Virus record (IMG/VR): IMGVR_UViG_3300025138_000256
Span: 1-28,233 of that record
Reading direction: 5' to 3' (one strand)
DNA: 28,233 nt
Source: a virus
Shown: piece by piece, positions 10,364 to 27,272 of the stretch
Position numbering within the stretch: position 1 is the first letter of the stretch
Layout of the letters: every line of letters starts with the position of its first letter
Notes under the pieces: generated by a model
What the model saw: only the letters and a program-made list of their open reading frames with translations
What the model was told of the DNA's origin: nothing
Database searches by the model: none
Program-made: the position numbers and the translations under genes

Positions 10364-11098
10364 TTATTTTTTGTATTTTCCGCTACTTCCTGAGGTACCT
10401 TTAAACATACCCTTTTCTTCAGCCTCTTCATAAACCTCAATCAAATCATCAACAATAGGATCCCTATGATTTTGCATTAAAGTTATACCAGTCATTTTTT
10501 TAATTCTTCTAGCTGCTGCATATAAAAATCTAAAACCAGAATCTGCTTTACCTCTTAAATCAATTTGATGATCATCACCACAAACTATCATTTTAGATCT
10601 TAAACCAATTCTAGTTGATATCATTTCCATTTGCTCATGAGTAACATTTTGTGCTTCATCTACTATAATACATGAATCTAGAAATGTTCTACCCCGCATA
10701 AATGCTAAAGGTACTATTTCTATTTTTCCATCTTCAATTAATTTTTCAACTTTAACTTTATCAAATAAAGAATACATATTTTGGTAAATAGGTTGAATCC
10801 AAGGATCCATTTTTTCTCTTAAATCACCTGGTAAAAATCCAATTTCTTCTTTTGATACTGTAGGACGTGTAATTATAATTTTTGTATAATGTCTTCTTAA
10901 TAGTCCGTCTAATGCTATATTACAAGCTAATAATGTTTTACCTGACCCTGCTCTACCAGCTAATACTGATAGTGTATGGTCTAATATTTTTGCTTTTGCT
11001 TCTTTTTGCTCTTCGTTTAATTGTAATTTAAATTTAATAGGATTTTTAACTATTCTTTTTTTTCTAAATACCTCGTCCTTATGATGGTTCGATGTCAT
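10364..11098 (-). CDS. phoH: PhoH-like P-loop ATPase
   Basis: This 244-residue protein is a clear PhoH-family NTPase. Walker A is GRAGSGKT (residues 48-55), Walker B is IIVDEAQN (144-151), and further family motifs TRPT (77-80), GDDHQIDLRG (174-183) and QNHRD (209-213) are intact. The family is a superfamily-1-helicase-like ATPase; in bacteria it was first linked to phosphate starvation, and it is very common in marine phages, where its function remains unclear, possibly RNA processing. The length is normal for phage PhoH, which lacks the KH or PIN domains of cellular versions. Its start overlaps the end of the PSD-like gene by 20 bases, which suggests translational coupling and one transcript with that gene and the amidinohydrolase. 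No upstream phosphate box is recognisable, and no terminator follows the stop codon. Confidence 0.95.
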   Translation of the reverse strand: MTSNHHKDEVFRKKRIVKNPIKFKLQLNEEQKEAKAKILDHTLSVLAGRAGSGKTLLACNIALDGLLRRHYTKIIITRPTVSKEEIGFLPGDLREKMDPWIQPIYQNMYSLFDKVKVEKLIEDGKIEIVPLAFMRGRTFLDSCIIVDEAQNVTHEQMEMISTRIGLRSKMIVCGDDHQIDLRGKADSGFRFLYAAARRIKKMTGITLMQNHRDPIVDDLIEVYEEAEEKGMFKGTSGSSGKYKK

Positions 11099-11813
11099 TA
11101 TTCGTTTCTTTAATTTTGATTAATTTGTCAAGACCTGCATTTACATGCATTGTATCGTCTAGAATGGTCTCAAATTTATATCTAGAATCTAGAGGTAGAA
11201 CTAAATCTACTTGTGATCCCCATCTAATCAAACTGAATCTTTCGTTTTGTGTACAAAGATCCCCTTGTTGTTTAAAAGGGGCTATTACATTTACATCTTC
11301 ATCTGCTATTTGTATTATGTGGTATGTGTAATCTAAAGAAGGAACATACACTTTGTTAGACATTCTTTCATTGTACTTTAAGTACGCCATGTTGTTAGGG
11401 TTGATTACTTTATTTAAAATATCCTTCTCTACTGCTAACATTGGTTTATTAGTTGACTCTATAGGTTCCAAACGGTTGTATTTAAGCACACCACCATAAG
11501 GAATTCTATTTATATGTACATCATAAAATGACATAAATATTCCAATAACTAAAGAAGGTTTATTGTAACTACTATCACCCATTACATCTTGGATAGTATA
11601 ATCAATACCTTTTATTTCTAAAACTTGCTCACCAGGTTGAACTACTTTTTGGTATAAAATAGTACCATCTGCCGGGCTATAAAAATGTTTATAATCTATT
11701 TGGGTTGATCTTAAGGGATCTCTAAAAAAGAATGTATTACTTAATTCCCCTACTGATAATTTTGATAATTCATTTACTTCACCATTTAACCAATCTTCTA
11801 AAGTCTCAGCCAT
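11079..11813 (-). CDS. psd: Phosphatidylserine decarboxylase-like pyruvoyl enzyme (proenzyme)
   Basis: The 244-residue protein carries the ordered signature of phosphatidylserine decarboxylase (PSD), which turns phosphatidylserine into phosphatidylethanolamine plus CO2 using a pyruvoyl group made by self-cleavage. FFFRDPLR (28-35) is followed by YSPADG (45-50, Asp49), IKGIDYTI (67-74), FYDVHINRIPYGG (96-108, His100), NER (148-150) and IRWGSQVDLVLP (196-207). The Gly199-Ser200 pair is where the short bacterial/archaeal PSD form cleaves, so Asp-His-Ser are all present and the enzyme should be active. Oddly, the N-terminus is hydrophilic and acidic, with no membrane segment, so it may be soluble and could act on another carboxylated amine, as some PSD relatives do. 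Its ATG overlaps the preceding stop codon (TAATG) and its end overlaps phoH by 20 bases. Confidence 0.85.
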   Translation of the reverse strand: MAETLEDWLNGEVNELSKLSVGELSNTFFFRDPLRSTQIDYKHFYSPADGTILYQKVVQPGEQVLEIKGIDYTIQDVMGDSSYNKPSLVIGIFMSFYDVHINRIPYGGVLKYNRLEPIESTNKPMLAVEKDILNKVINPNNMAYLKYNERMSNKVYVPSLDYTYHIIQIADEDVNVIAPFKQQGDLCTQNERFSLIRWGSQVDLVLPLDSRYKFETILDDTMHVNAGLDKLIKIKETNNDIEPS

Positions 11814-12727
11814 TAAAGAAGAGATTTAAAATGATCAACTCTATTTAAATGCATTACCATACAACTTAACATAGCACCTGATTTCATATATTCTGATAAA
11901 TTAAATATTACAGGCTCCATTCCTTCATCAGAACATATTTTTTCTAATGAAGCTATTTTGTGTTTTTCACCTTCATAAAATTCATCTCCTCGTTTCATTT
12001 CAGAAACGTTTGAAGCACATAAAATCATATTACCTAATCTAACAGAATTAGCCATTCCATACATTGAGTCTTCAGCATCTATGTCTATTATGTTAGTATA
12101 GTTGCTTATTTGCGCTAACTCGGTTTTATCATACAACTCCGTACAAACCATAGTTGACCGCGTATTTAACGGGAATATACTACAATCTAAATGGTACATA
12201 TATTCATCAACCATTTTAACTTTAATAACTTTCATATCAAAATTTTCTTCCATCCAATGGTATGTTTTTATATCTGAACGAATATCATATCCTCCTATAT
12301 AAACATTATCTTTTAAATATTTTATATCTGCTTCACCTTCCCATTTATGGGGTGATATATGAGTATTATAACCCATTTGTTTAAAGAATTTTTCACCTAC
12401 ATATTCTTCACCTTGTCTTGGTGGTGAAGTATAATTAGATAATAAGATGTGATTTTCATCTTTAATATGTGGTAATTGTAGTCCTAAATTTGCTACATAA
12501 ATTAAATCTTGAAAGTTACCTTCTGCGGGTAGCAAATGTACTAAAGATTGACCAGCCATAAAATTATATAAGTCCATAAATTGCTTATATGCTTTTGGTC
12601 TGTTAATTGATAATTCTTTATTTGACATTTCCTTCATCCAAACATTATTTGGATCATCTGTTGAAAAGGTATGCGGGAAATTCATTACGTAACTTTGAAT
12701 TGGTAACTGTGAGGGAGTTTCTTTCAT
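11813..12727 (-). CDS. Amidinotransferase/DDAH-fold (guanidine-modifying) enzyme
   Basis: The 304-residue product fits the dimethylarginine dimethylaminohydrolase / arginine deiminase / amidinotransferase superfamily. These enzymes attack a guanidino carbon with an active-site Cys, assisted by a His and acidic residues. Visible motifs in order: NFQDLIYVANLGL (71-83; substrate loop), SPPRQGEE (101-108), EGEAD (130-134), GGYDIRSD (145-152), YHLDCSIFPLN (178-188; catalytic His179), AEDSMYGMANSV (218-229) and SGAMLSCMVMHLN (283-295; probable nucleophile Cys289). The catalytic set looks complete. The overall pattern is nearest to DDAH-like hydrolases, so likely products are citrulline or ornithine-type compounds, but substrate cannot be read from sequence. 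It is the first gene of the cassette: a promoter-like motif lies 21 bases before the ATG, and its TAA shares a base with the PSD start. Confidence 0.75.
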   Translation of the reverse strand: MKETPSQLPIQSYVMNFPHTFSTDDPNNVWMKEMSNKELSINRPKAYKQFMDLYNFMAGQSLVHLLPAEGNFQDLIYVANLGLQLPHIKDENHILLSNYTSPPRQGEEYVGEKFFKQMGYNTHISPHKWEGEADIKYLKDNVYIGGYDIRSDIKTYHWMEENFDMKVIKVKMVDEYMYHLDCSIFPLNTRSTMVCTELYDKTELAQISNYTNIIDIDAEDSMYGMANSVRLGNMILCASNVSEMKRGDEFYEGEKHKIASLEKICSDEGMEPVIFNLSEYMKSGAMLSCMVMHLNRVDHFKSLL

Positions 12728-12787: not shown

Positions 12788-12814
12788 AAAAAAAAGCCCC
12801 GCTAATGCGGGGCT
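12788..12814 (-). terminator. Rho-independent terminator after the major capsid gene
   Basis: The minus strand has an 8-base perfect GC-rich stem, AGCCCCGC / GCGGGGCT (12795-12802 with 12807-12814), a four-base loop and then eight T residues. It begins 30 bases after the gp23 stop codon. It is by far the strongest hairpin in this AT-rich window and should separate capsid expression from the downstream cassette. Confidence 0.93.
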
Positions 12815-12844
12815 CTTAATTACTATTATTTTAAAATCTTAATA

Positions 12845-14575
12845 TTAAAGAGTATTTAAACCATTAACAAAGATCTTACCATAAAATTCTGGTCTTACGA
12901 CTTTCTTAGCATAACGAGTAAGTAAACCTTTTCTTGGTGTGAAAGTGTTTGGATCGTATACTAGTGGAGTCATGATCAACGGAATATATGGAGCAAATAC
13001 AGCACCAGCTTCTAAGAACTGACCTCCTCTAAATCCTAATAGGATTGTATTTTCAGTCATGTATGGGTTCTTATAAACAGTATATCTAGAGTTGATAGTT
13101 CCAGCTTTTTGTACACCAAAAGCGTAGCTCATTTTAGCAGCATCACCATCAGAAGTACTAGCAAATCCTGGTATAGATTCGATAATAGTAGCTACTGTAG
13201 GAGAACATACTAAGAAATTAGCACCACCTCTAAGAGTTTTCTGGTGAATGATATTACTTAACTTTTGGATTTTAGTTCCTAATGTTTGGAACCATTGTCC
13301 TTGAGAGTTAAAGAATCCTAAATTCGCGTTAGCAACACCTGTTTGGTCAACTGCTAAGTTGTTTTGAGCACTCCACCACTCTGTACCAGCTGCAGCTGAT
13401 TCGATCAACATATCAAGAATTTCTAAGTCAATTTCTAATGAAATGTACTCACTCATGATTGAAGTTAATTCAGCTTCTGCATCTAGAGAATGGTAAGCGT
13501 TAAGATCTTGAGCGAACTCAGGAGTCCAAACTGCTCTTAATTTTCTAGTTTTAGCAACAATAGCCTCTGATTGCATTTGTATGTTAATCTGAGGTATAGT
13601 GATTGGGTTATTATCTCCGTTCAAGTTAGTGTTTCCATCTTCGAAATCACCTCTTTGAGCGTCATTTGTTTGCATTGTGTAAACAACTTTAATTGCACCT
13701 GGAGGCGCTGCTACACTTGTTACAAGATCAGAATCCGCAAAGAAAGCAATCACATCAACACCAGCTGATTGAGTTACTTTTGTAAATTGTGGGTACTGAA
13801 CTGTAGTTGCAGGAATAGCTGCTACTGAACCTGATAAATAGAATCCTTTTACGGCTCTAGTATCATATCCTGGTAAAGAAGCTACTGGTACTGAGAACAT
13901 ACCGATTTGCTTGTTACCTGTGTTAGCTGAAGCACCTGTACCATCTTGTACTTGTTGACCAGCAACATAAGATTGAGATACTGAAGAATCAGCTTGTAAA
14001 TCTACATACCAATCAACAGATGCTGATATAGCTGTATAAGCTAAGGATTGTGTATTGTTAATAGAGTAACCAAATCTACCTGCACCATAAAGACCACCTG
14101 CATTTGTGTTACCAAATGGAGAAGTTACGTCATTTATAGGACCTGTTTGAGTTGCTACTGTATTACCATATAATGAATTACCAGCAGTAAATGGTTCTTT
14201 TGTAGTACCATACTGGAAATCAAGATAAAATACTAGGCCAGAAGGTAAGTTCATTGGTTGAACCGAAACAAATTCCTTTGCTGCGATTTGACCAAATACT
14301 TTTCTTACTAATGGTAAAGCTACACCAGCCCATTGTGCTCCTGTTCCAGGAGTAAATGTACCAGCACCAGGAAGCGGACCACCTGTGTTGCTTTCTTCCA
14401 TTACCAACTGCTTAGCTTGGTTTTCAAGAATCATAGACATATTGTTTTTCTCAGTCTCGCTTCCGATACCTTCTAACAAACCTGTCTTATTCCATTTGTT
14501 GGCTAACCTTGCTGCATCACTTTGTAGTGACTTGTAAGGGTTAGCGCTTTCTAATAGAGAATTTAATTGTGACAT
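12845..14575 (-). CDS. 23: Major capsid protein (T4 gp23-like)
   Basis: The 576-residue protein matches the gp23 family of HK97-fold major capsid proteins in length, position after gp21-gp22, and sequence. The N-terminus contains ANPYKSLQSDAARLANKW, the region after residue 80 (QWAGVALPLVRKVFGQIAA) and VSVQPMNLPSGLVFYLDFQ (103-121) are characteristic, and the C-terminal part has TPLVYDPNTFTPRKGLLTRY. In T4, gp21 removes about 65 N-terminal residues; here an acidic Met-Glu-Glu-Ser at residues 59-62 is a plausible cleavage site. Residues 72-83 (GTFTPGTGAQWA) resemble a motif in the 297-residue protein at 17914-18807. There is no Shine-Dalgarno site; the leader is A-rich and contains a degenerate promoter-like TTAATAATAA at 14597-14606. 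A strong terminator follows. Confidence 0.95.
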   Translation of the reverse strand: MSQLNSLLESANPYKSLQSDAARLANKWNKTGLLEGIGSETEKNNMSMILENQAKQLVMEESNTGGPLPGAGTFTPGTGAQWAGVALPLVRKVFGQIAAKEFVSVQPMNLPSGLVFYLDFQYGTTKEPFTAGNSLYGNTVATQTGPINDVTSPFGNTNAGGLYGAGRFGYSINNTQSLAYTAISASVDWYVDLQADSSVSQSYVAGQQVQDGTGASANTGNKQIGMFSVPVASLPGYDTRAVKGFYLSGSVAAIPATTVQYPQFTKVTQSAGVDVIAFFADSDLVTSVAAPPGAIKVVYTMQTNDAQRGDFEDGNTNLNGDNNPITIPQINIQMQSEAIVAKTRKLRAVWTPEFAQDLNAYHSLDAEAELTSIMSEYISLEIDLEILDMLIESAAAGTEWWSAQNNLAVDQTGVANANLGFFNSQGQWFQTLGTKIQKLSNIIHQKTLRGGANFLVCSPTVATIIESIPGFASTSDGDAAKMSYAFGVQKAGTINSRYTVYKNPYMTENTILLGFRGGQFLEAGAVFAPYIPLIMTPLVYDPNTFTPRKGLLTRYAKKVVRPEFYGKIFVNGLNTL

Positions 14576-24447: not shown

Positions 24448-24457
24448 TTATAAATAT
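24448..24457 (-). promoter_or_regulatory. Promoter-like motif before the 184-residue gene
   Basis: A perfect ATATTTATAA preceded by TTTCGTG and followed by CAAAAACATA, ending 16 bases before ATG 24431. It overlaps the stop codon of the kinase gene by one base. It probably starts the membrane-protein and terminase transcript. Confidence 0.55.
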
Positions 24458-24987
24458 CACGAAATAATTGCCTGTTTAACTAATTTTATACGTTCTTCTG
24501 TTGCACCTTTAATTTCAATTAAATTTCTAATTTTATGTCTATATTTAATAATTAATAATTGAATAGCTTCATCAATAGTTTTTCTGTAATCAGCATTAGT
24601 TTCCCTCACACCATTATTTTCTATTTCTACACCCTCAGGAGATATGTAAAAGATATAATCATACTCATTTAACATATTACTTGCAAAATGACAAAAATCA
24701 TTTGCTTCTATATAATTCATTGATTCAGATGATTTAGCAAATGCCATTACATCAATAATTGTCCTGTCTGTTATAATATTATCTTGTATCAATTCACTAG
24801 CTCTTTCAGCTAAAAATATAGCTTGACCCTTAACAGTAGAATCTGTATTTAATGGTATACCCATTTCCATAAGATACTTAGAACGCTCTGTTCTAGTTGT
24901 ATAATCTTTAAATTCTGGTAATTTAGCTAAAGCGTTAACTAAAGTTGTTTTACCTACTGACATTGTACCACAAAAACCTATTTTCAT
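24457..24987 (-). CDS. P-loop nucleotide kinase-like ATPase (AAA_28/NadR type)
   Basis: The 176-residue protein has Walker A GTMSVGKT (7-14), a TTRTERSKY segment (30-38) like the substrate or lid region of small kinases, and IITDRTIIDVMAFA (71-84), the DR-x-x-x-D pattern of deoxynucleoside- and ribosylnicotinamide-kinase-like enzymes. This combination resembles the AAA_28 family related to the NadR kinase domain. It therefore probably phosphorylates a nucleoside-like substrate such as a nicotinamide or deoxynucleotide precursor, but the substrate cannot be assigned. It lies in the accessory block between a 94-residue hypothetical gene and the packaging genes and has only one base between it and its upstream neighbour. 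The domain call is firm; the reaction is not. Confidence 0.75.
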   Translation of the reverse strand: MKIGFCGTMSVGKTTLVNALAKLPEFKDYTTRTERSKYLMEMGIPLNTDSTVKGQAIFLAERASELIQDNIITDRTIIDVMAFAKSSESMNYIEANDFCHFASNMLNEYDYIFYISPEGVEIENNGVRETNADYRKTIDEAIQLLIIKYRHKIRNLIEIKGATEERIKLVKQAIIS

Positions 24988-25970: not shown

Positions 25971-27272
25971 TTATATTTTATTTATTAATTGTTCTGCTAC
26001 TAATGTACCTTGTGCTCCTGATACTGTTATTCCTCTTGCACTTAATGCATCACCAACAAAGTGTACATTAGGATATTTTGTTAAACTTAAATCTTTATAA
26101 TTAACTAATGGCTCAGGTGATAAGTACTTTATTTCTGGTACATACACACCCCAATCATCTCCTAATGTAGGAAATACTTTCTTCATATCATCAATAAAAT
26201 CATCAATGTATGTATAATAACCTTGAAATGCTTCTCTAATTTCATCTAATGAATCAATTTGAACAGCACTTACATCAATACCTTCAGATGTAGATGACGG
26301 TTTGCGAGTAGGACTATAAAATAATCCTGTTGCTTCTTTTTGCACTTTGCCTACTAATTCTCTAGACCATTCAAATGGATTTTCTATACCTTGTACTTCC
26401 ATTAGAATACCAAAATTAGTCATATCATTTCTAAATGCTTCATCTTTTTTAGCATGTCCATTGTATGAATGATCTCCATACGTTTCTTCAACGGCAACAT
26501 ATGCTGCATTGTTGTTTGTACAGAATGAACGTAATGATACTCCTTTGTCTTCGAATTTACGATATAATTTAAAATCATAAGATACATCAATTAATTTTTG
26601 AAAGTGTTTTTGTGGTGCTTCAAATCTAACTCCTATTTGTACTGGTTTAGGTTCAGTTGGTAAATCATATTTTTCAGCTAATACCTTACCAAAGTCAATA
26701 CCTGATTTACCTACACCAAAAATAAGTTTATCATAGTGTTGATTTATATTAGCTAGCCCTTTCTTCCATGAAACATGATTTTCTTTAAAATTAATATCCT
26801 CTACCTTAGTTTCCCAAATAAATTCAACACCATTATCAGCTAAAAAATTATACCAATTTTTACCTATTTCATGTAAGTAATCTGTACCAACGTGCCATAC
26901 TGGGAATAATCTTAATCCAAAATATGGTTTAATAAATTCTGGTTCCGCTGTAGGGTTCGAACATTGTACTTCTGAGGGGTTTGGGTGAAAACGTTTAAAA
27001 TTGTCAATTACTTGATCAAATAGCTCCATTGCTTTTTCTTCACCACAATATTTACTTAATTGACCCCCAATTGATGTGTGATAAGTTAACTTACCATCAG
27101 ACCAACCACCAGCTCCTAAAAAGCCAGTCATTACTTCTTCATAGGGTCTTCGATAAGGATCTTTACCCATATCAATAATAGTGATTTTGCCTTGAAAACC
27201 TTCATCAACTAATTTAGTGGCAGCATTTACATTTGCTACTCCTGCACCTATCATTACTACTTTATTATTCAT
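25971..27272 (-). CDS. FAD-dependent dehydrogenase (COG2509-like)
   Basis: The 433-residue protein is a two-dinucleotide-type flavoprotein. The N-terminal FAD-binding Rossmann motif is VVMIGAGVANVNAA (5-18), a GxGxxN variant. GAGGWSDGKLTYH (53-65) is the signature I associate with COG2509-type uncharacterised FAD dehydrogenases. An internal VGKSGIDFGKVLAEK region follows, and near the C-terminus FVGDALSARGITVSGAQG plus a final helix closes the flavin site. Length is near the family norm, and no residue loss is obvious. The substrate is unknown even in cellular members. It begins the accessory operon: a promoter-like motif lies 18 bases before the ATG, directly after a terminator, and it is followed at a 3-base gap by the 91-residue gene. 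A flavoprotein of this kind is unusual in a phage late region. Confidence 0.8.
   Translation of the reverse strand: MNNKVVMIGAGVANVNAATKLVDEGFQGKITIIDMGKDPYRRPYEEVMTGFLGAGGWSDGKLTYHTSIGGQLSKYCGEEKAMELFDQVIDNFKRFHPNPSEVQCSNPTAEPEFIKPYFGLRLFPVWHVGTDYLHEIGKNWYNFLADNGVEFIWETKVEDINFKENHVSWKKGLANINQHYDKLIFGVGKSGIDFGKVLAEKYDLPTEPKPVQIGVRFEAPQKHFQKLIDVSYDFKLYRKFEDKGVSLRSFCTNNNAAYVAVEETYGDHSYNGHAKKDEAFRNDMTNFGILMEVQGIENPFEWSRELVGKVQKEATGLFYSPTRKPSSTSEGIDVSAVQIDSLDEIREAFQGYYTYIDDFIDDMKKVFPTLGDDWGVYVPEIKYLSPEPLVNYKDLSLTKYPNVHFVGDALSARGITVSGAQGTLVAEQLINKI

Follow-up and report, generated by a model that had tools for sequence, protein, structure and literature searches.

The 28,233-nucleotide window analyzed here is the whole stretch from positions 1 to 28,233 of IMG/VR record IMGVR_UViG_3300025138_000256, a 28 kb virus fragment. 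It carries a gene resembling phosphatidylserine decarboxylase (PSD), and the question it raises is what such a protein would decarboxylate in a phage. The initial annotation offered two answers, a soluble decarboxylase of another substrate or a peripheral enzyme acting on host membranes. Our analysis favors the former. We propose, with confidence evenly balanced between yes and no, that this member of the PSD superfamily has exchanged phosphatidylserine for a basic amino acid, with L-ornithine the likeliest, and that it is a soluble pyruvoyl decarboxylase which matures by cleaving itself.

The PSD-like proenzyme and its phage setting

The window is a contig of a T4-like phage, a placement that follows from its gp23 gene, and it also carries portal, terminase, prohead protease, PhoH and tail genes. 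The region around the PSD-like gene contains the following features.

10364-11098, minus strand: PhoH-like ATPase (PF02562, 1.1e-61), whose gene directly follows the PSD-like gene and shares 20 bases with it
11079-11813, minus strand: PSD-superfamily proenzyme, phrog_12670 (PF02666; phrog_12670 at 2.5e-41; AlphaFold2 model; VIA)
11813-12727, minus strand: guanidino-modifying enzyme, arginine dihydrolase-like, 304 aa, phrog_12759, upstream and first of the pair
12792-12817, minus strand: terminator-like hairpin between gp23 and the gene pair (11 pairs, 7 GC, T run)
12845-14575, minus strand: major capsid protein gp23 (PF07068, 3.8e-76)

Three terminator-like hairpins were found in the region versus 2.2 expected by chance. 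The PhoH-like ATPase follows the PSD-like gene in most marine relatives and is only 45-47% identical in several loci where the pair stays conserved. Elsewhere in the window, the ORF at 24457-24987 (minus strand) matches thymidylate kinase families and, weakly, nicotinamide-nucleotide adenylyltransferase.

The PSD-like open reading frame was correctly delimited by the initial annotation at 11079-11813; it encodes 244 residues on the minus strand, the plus strand here being riddled with stops, and the phage setting then assumed is borne out by the gp23, portal, terminase, prohead protease and PhoH genes. The search against the PSD family that had been suggested as a check returned PF02666 over residues 27-227 (E=1e-23, 84.5 bits against a Pfam cut-off of 22), and relatives from four other phage lineages also pass the gathering score. 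The protein fails the NCBIfam PSD equivalog cut-offs (79 bits versus 183 for the best model), and phrog_12670, to which it belongs, carries no assigned function.

The AlphaFold2 model of the protein (pLDDT 86.5, pTM 0.87; one DAC16 row was left out of the input) superimposes on E. coli PSD at VIA Z 10.0-10.5 over 160 residues (rmsd ~4.3), on the L-tryptophan decarboxylase PsiD at Z 9.7 and 9.2, and on the Aspergillus oryzae arginine decarboxylase (PDB 9jer) at Z 8.9. These matches come from VIA realignment; Foldseek alone returned nothing below E 0.001 for this model. Since IIAGlc barrels, which share the common barrel only, score as high (Z 10-12), the PSD fold match leans on the sequence match. 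A PDB search with the single sequence gave no match, and one with the family profile gave significant hits to E. coli PSD only. Judged by its sequence and predicted structure, the ORF is a full-length member of the PSD superfamily.

The residues expected to direct maturation, Asp49 in SPADG, His100 in FYDVHINR and Gly199-Ser200 in IRWGSQ, all occupy the positions given to them in the initial annotation.

11667-11669, minus strand: Asp49, matching E. coli PSD Asp90 (maturation); present in all 18 phage and all 35 cellular sequences
11514-11516, minus strand: His100, which corresponds to E. coli PSD His144; conserved without exception (18/18 phage, 35/35 cellular)
11214-11219, minus strand: Gly199-Ser200, predicted self-cleavage and pyruvoyl site; 18/18 each, aligning with the cellular GS

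None of the four residues varies among 18 diverse phage relatives, some as distant as 32% identity, which excludes chance. The role of His144 in the E. coli enzyme has been described (PMC7952604). It had also been expected that modeling would bring Asp49, His100 and Ser200 together. The fold is indeed PSD-like and the three residues align to the PSD columns, a placement made by alignment rather than by spatial distance.

The gene pair and the partner enzyme

The stop codon of the upstream partner gene overlaps the start of the PSD-like gene by one base (TAATG), and the same overlap is present in 183 of 205 loci with complete genes. Both genes occur in 222 of the fetched loci. Most viral loci with a single gene are cut by a contig end or belong to Campylobacter phages, and the other single-gene loci are the cellular PSDs included for comparison; one locus (L215) ends ~85 bases after the partner. 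Among annotated phages, the PSD-like gene was found in 45 records (39 Campylobacter, 6 Bacteroides) at ~36% identity, and the partner in 46, namely these phages again and a single further record, a fragmented sequence. IMG/VR holds ~200 more relatives of the PSD-like protein.

Across marine, Bacteroides and Campylobacter phages the pair co-occurs at 36-38% identity in differing arrangements. The two genes are adjacent in Bacteroides phage DAC16, 43 kb apart in Campylobacter phage NCTC12673, more than 500 bases apart in locus L096 and on opposite strands in locus L089. The main splits of the two protein trees agree, and their distances correlate (r=0.95). Because the genes can be separate and yet are retained together over this divergence, they very probably work together. 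Campylobacter phage CP220, which is in the collection and belongs to the sister genus Firehammervirus, lacks the pair and was matched in neither search; CP220 and CPt10 have been reported to carry clusters of five radical SAM genes together with a putative glycine amidinotransferase (PMC2853527).

The neighborhoods of the pair differ among these phages. In NCTC12673 (L082, 5694-8185), the PSD-like gene is flanked on one side by a GroES homologue and on the other by a homing endonuclease, which overlaps the 3' end of the PSD-like gene. In DAC16 (L083, 8385-9867), ORFs resembling, by eye, dCTP deaminase and GMP reductase lie downstream of the pair, and a dUTPase-like ORF (also by eye) lies upstream.

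The partner scores 87.8 bits (7e-25) against the NCBIfam arginine dihydrolase model, below its equivalog cut-off of 450, and nearly as high against dimethylargininase, so that a citrulline-forming activity is possible. With the partner family profile, ArgZ/AgrE were the only PDB chains at E<0.001 (3.2e-26). The partner model (pLDDT 91.7) matches ArgZ/AgrE at VIA Z 34, followed by AstB (27), DDAH (26.6), arginine deiminase (~25) and agmatine deiminase (~21). Residues N80, R104, E130, R150, H179 and C289 are invariant in 23/23 sequences and map in alignments to ArgZ N71, R90, E118, R139, H168 and C264. Two of them are tied to ArgZ through PDB entry titles.

12488-12490, minus strand: Asn80, equivalent of ArgZ Asn71 by alignment; 23/23 (N71S in a PDB entry title)
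11861-11863, minus strand: Cys289, equivalent of catalytic ArgZ Cys264 by alignment; 23/23 (C264S in a PDB entry title)

The roles of the ArgZ residues are partly taken from such titles and partly presumed, and those of R90 and R139 in ArgZ itself are ones that we presume. Related ADIs and DDAHs use a pair of arginines to bind the carboxylate of the substrate (PMC11659421). By analogy, an alpha-amino acid, here arginine, would fit the partner better than agmatine. By the distinction drawn in that source, Asp181 of the partner is the ADI-type residue and not the DDAH lysine.

Substrate pocket, membrane association and lipid context

The pocket was compared between 18 phage proteins and 35 cellular short PSDs, a cellular set drawn mostly from Bacteroidota. 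Common to both groups are F29, R31, R35, P47, A48, D49, G50, F93, H100, N102, P105, G108, A127, N148, G199, S200 and P207. Five positions switch from the cellular to the phage proteins: 171 changes from G to D, 174 from A to V, 175 from R to N or D, 176 from R to V and 201 from R to Q. At 175, 176 and 201, an arginine invariant in the cellular proteins is gone from 18/18 phage sequences.

11427-11429, minus strand: Glu129, invariant in the phage family only (E in 18/18 versus mixed D/H/N in cellular proteins)
11286-11303, minus strand: Asp171-Glu-Asp-Val-Asn-Val176, replacing cellular G-x-x-A-R-R with two Arg lost and acids gained (171 is D in 18/18 phage versus G in 35/35 cellular; 175/176 are R/R in 35/35 cellular)
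11211-11213, minus strand: Gln201, the residue after the predicted pyruvoyl serine (Q in 17/18 phage versus R in 35/35 cellular)

As far as sequence can tell, the loss of arginines and the gain of acids fit a change of substrate in which a cationic amino acid takes the place of the anionic head group of a phospholipid. Position 201 is the one switched position that adjoins the pyruvoyl serine for certain, and D171, D173 and E129 may line the pocket as well.

In the phylogeny, the phage proteins form one separate group (support 100/100) whose branch measures 4.3 changes per site, and the phage gene is therefore not a recent copy of a host PSD. When genomes were scanned with the family profile, no cellular origin of the phage clade came to light: the only matches were a normal lipid PSD, which adjoins a CDP-alcohol phosphatidyltransferase-like gene, and a phage contig from a Flavobacteriales bin. 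NZWA01000018.1 (L087), a contig of this phage group at 94% identity, is binned with a Flavobacteriales genome, which gives a weak hint of the host.

The missing membrane segment pointed out in the initial annotation is supported by hydropathy: no transmembrane helix was found, the best 19-residue N-terminal value being 0.2, whereas three cellular short PSDs reach 1.9-2.7. In the model the N-terminus forms two short helices, and Trp8 and Val13 of the N-terminal helix are invariant in the phage relatives; these predicted helices could be amphipathic and mediate peripheral membrane binding. As E. coli PSD is itself monotopic, held by three amphipathic helices with no transmembrane helix (PMC7952604), the lack of a membrane helix alone leaves the substrate undecided.

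PS synthase of the PF01066 type, as distinct from PLD-type PssA, was not found in 20 large related phage records, in a search for that family that was positive in 14/14 control genomes. All 61 sampled genomes of the Bacteroidota, the host phylum, have their own PSD, and the fetched cellular PSDs adjoin pssA or a CDP-alcohol phosphatidyltransferase-like gene. Because a PSD equivalog score, the invariant arginines and a PF01066 gene, all features of the lipid enzyme, were looked for and not found, we file the protein as a PSD-superfamily member and regard the label phosphatidylserine decarboxylase as doubtful. Of the two initial alternatives, a decarboxylase of another substrate is thus favored by the arginine dihydrolase-like partner, the changed pocket and the lack of PF01066 in the 20 records. 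Peripheral action on host membranes is less favored, and is kept in view by the monotopic E. coli enzyme and the two short helices in the model.

The proposed route, its rivals and known systems

In the route that we propose, hydrolysis of host arginine by the partner would release CO2 and ammonia and leave ornithine. The PSD-like proenzyme would split at Gly199-Ser200, converting Ser200 into a pyruvoyl group, which would then form a Schiff base with ornithine and release CO2 to yield putrescine. Phage polyamines generally serve in neutralizing packaged DNA or in translation; the putrescine made here might be used for the infected cell or to neutralize packaged DNA. We infer the cleavage, the order of steps, the substrate, the product and its use, the substrate from the partner and the pocket only. 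That a PSD-derived soluble ornithine decarboxylase and an ArgZ-type dihydrolase form an arginine-ornithine-putrescine unit in diverged Bacteroidota and Campylobacter phages is a more tentative proposal, to which we give somewhat less than even confidence.

There is precedent for such chemistry. PsiD decarboxylates free tryptophan (PMC6121855), and the Aspergillus enzyme (9jer) is given as a pyruvoyl arginine decarboxylase (PMC12283126); free-amino-acid decarboxylases of the PSD fold, one of them for a basic amino acid, therefore already exist. As a counterpoint, this known basic-amino-acid member uses arginine and not ornithine. A full phage polyamine pathway was rejected because spermidine synthase and AdoMetDC were not found in the same 20 large records. 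The later polyamine steps would thus be the host's, with putrescine either the end product or a feed into the host pathway. A FAD-dependent 'dehydrogenase' (phrog_12409; 25971-27272, minus strand) is common to 37 Campylobacter phages and 11 gut phage fragments. It was considered as a third step and dropped, as no match was found in the Bacteroides phages carrying the pair.

The closest rivals to the ornithine reading are decarboxylation of arginine to agmatine and action on some other substrate. If the order were reversed, the PSD-like enzyme would convert arginine to agmatine and the partner would convert agmatine to putrescine, an order for which the PSD-fold arginine decarboxylase (9jer; PMC12283126) offers a precedent. 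We consider it distinctly unlikely, given that the partner keeps R104 and R150 (ArgZ R90/R139) whereas agmatine has no carboxylate, and that agmatine deiminases, at Z ~21, are among the weakest fold matches of the guanidino enzymes listed. Another substrate, such as citrulline, an arginine derivative, a modified base or a protein-bound group, would make the partner a deiminase or amidinotransferase. Its score for dimethylargininase and the amidinotransferase name in Campylobacter phage annotations both suit this reading, which we nonetheless think unlikely: the whole ArgZ set, Asn80 included, is preserved in 23/23 sequences, ArgZ/AgrE is the nearest fold by ~7 Z units, and Asp181 is of the ADI type rather than the DDAH lysine (PMC11659421).

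A true PSD, peripheral on the host membrane and raising PE or consuming PS during infection, would account for the PF02666 match and the maturation residues, for the two helices predicted at the N-terminus, where Trp8 and Val13 do not vary, and for a protein that, like E. coli PSD, might bind membranes without a transmembrane helix (PMC7952604); ocean virus surveys also count phage psd as a PE gene (PMC11360552). It is rendered rather unlikely by a score of 79 bits against 183, far under every NCBIfam PSD equivalog cut-off, by the loss of three cellular-invariant arginines, by the lack of a PF01066 PS synthase in the 20 large records and by the PSD already present in 61/61 host-phylum genomes, and it leaves the constant arginine dihydrolase-like partner unexplained. 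An inactive or structural PSD relic with no decarboxylase role, for which the location in a structural gene region could speak, is very improbable considering that neither the catalytic nor the cleavage residues vary between lineages whose proteins are 32-38% identical.

The ornithine reading, if true, would change how these genes are annotated. Dozens of Campylobacter phage records name the pair phosphatidylserine decarboxylase and amidinotransferase, and a global ocean survey read phage psd and pssA as phosphatidylethanolamine genes and placed amidinotransferase under creatine synthesis (PMC11360552). Should the pair make putrescine, the PE and creatine readings would be wrong for this clade, and some of the genes annotated as 'psd' and 'amidinotransferase' in phages would need relabeling as polyamine genes. 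What would be new is the proposed substrate and the route of two genes, not the gene family; neither a PSD-family ornithine decarboxylase nor such a two-enzyme route was found in the literature searched.

Among known systems, the bacterial short-type phosphatidylserine/archaetidylserine decarboxylases (PF02666, TIGR00164, NF003685) share with the phage protein the fold, Asp49, His100 and the Gly-Ser site as well as the FRDP, SPADG and NER motifs. The phage protein differs from them in having no membrane helix, in three lost arginines and gained acids, in ~20 additional residues at 60-78 and an insert at 131-142, in the lack of a pssA partner among the genes found, and in scoring below all equivalog cut-offs. 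PsiD (PDB 8x4q, 8zia) has the same fold and applies pyruvoyl chemistry to a free amino acid (Z 9.7), but is a much larger fungal relative of type II PSD with an aromatic substrate and gave no match to the phage family in PDB sequence and profile searches. The Aspergillus oryzae arginine decarboxylase (9jer, Z 8.9) shares the fold and acts on a basic amino acid; unlike the phage protein it is fungal and larger and has arginine as its substrate, and we know of no dihydrolase partner for it. The phage protein would be the second basic-amino-acid decarboxylase of the PSD fold beside it. The partner retains the ArgZ/AgrE fold (Z 34) and the six mapped key residues, but stands alone, at 22-23% identity and without the ornithine cyclodeaminase domain. 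Phages are already known to encode pyruvoyl ornithine and arginine decarboxylases that supply putrescine or agmatine, and these derive from SpeD, an AdoMet decarboxylase, and not from PSD (PMC9992855, PMC10407285). Neither report mentions phosphatidylserine or arginine dihydrolase, and the survey of virus polyamine enzymes (PMC9992855) mentions neither of the two gene families; if our reading is true, the pair would add a further, independent phage polyamine route beside the SpeD-derived enzymes.
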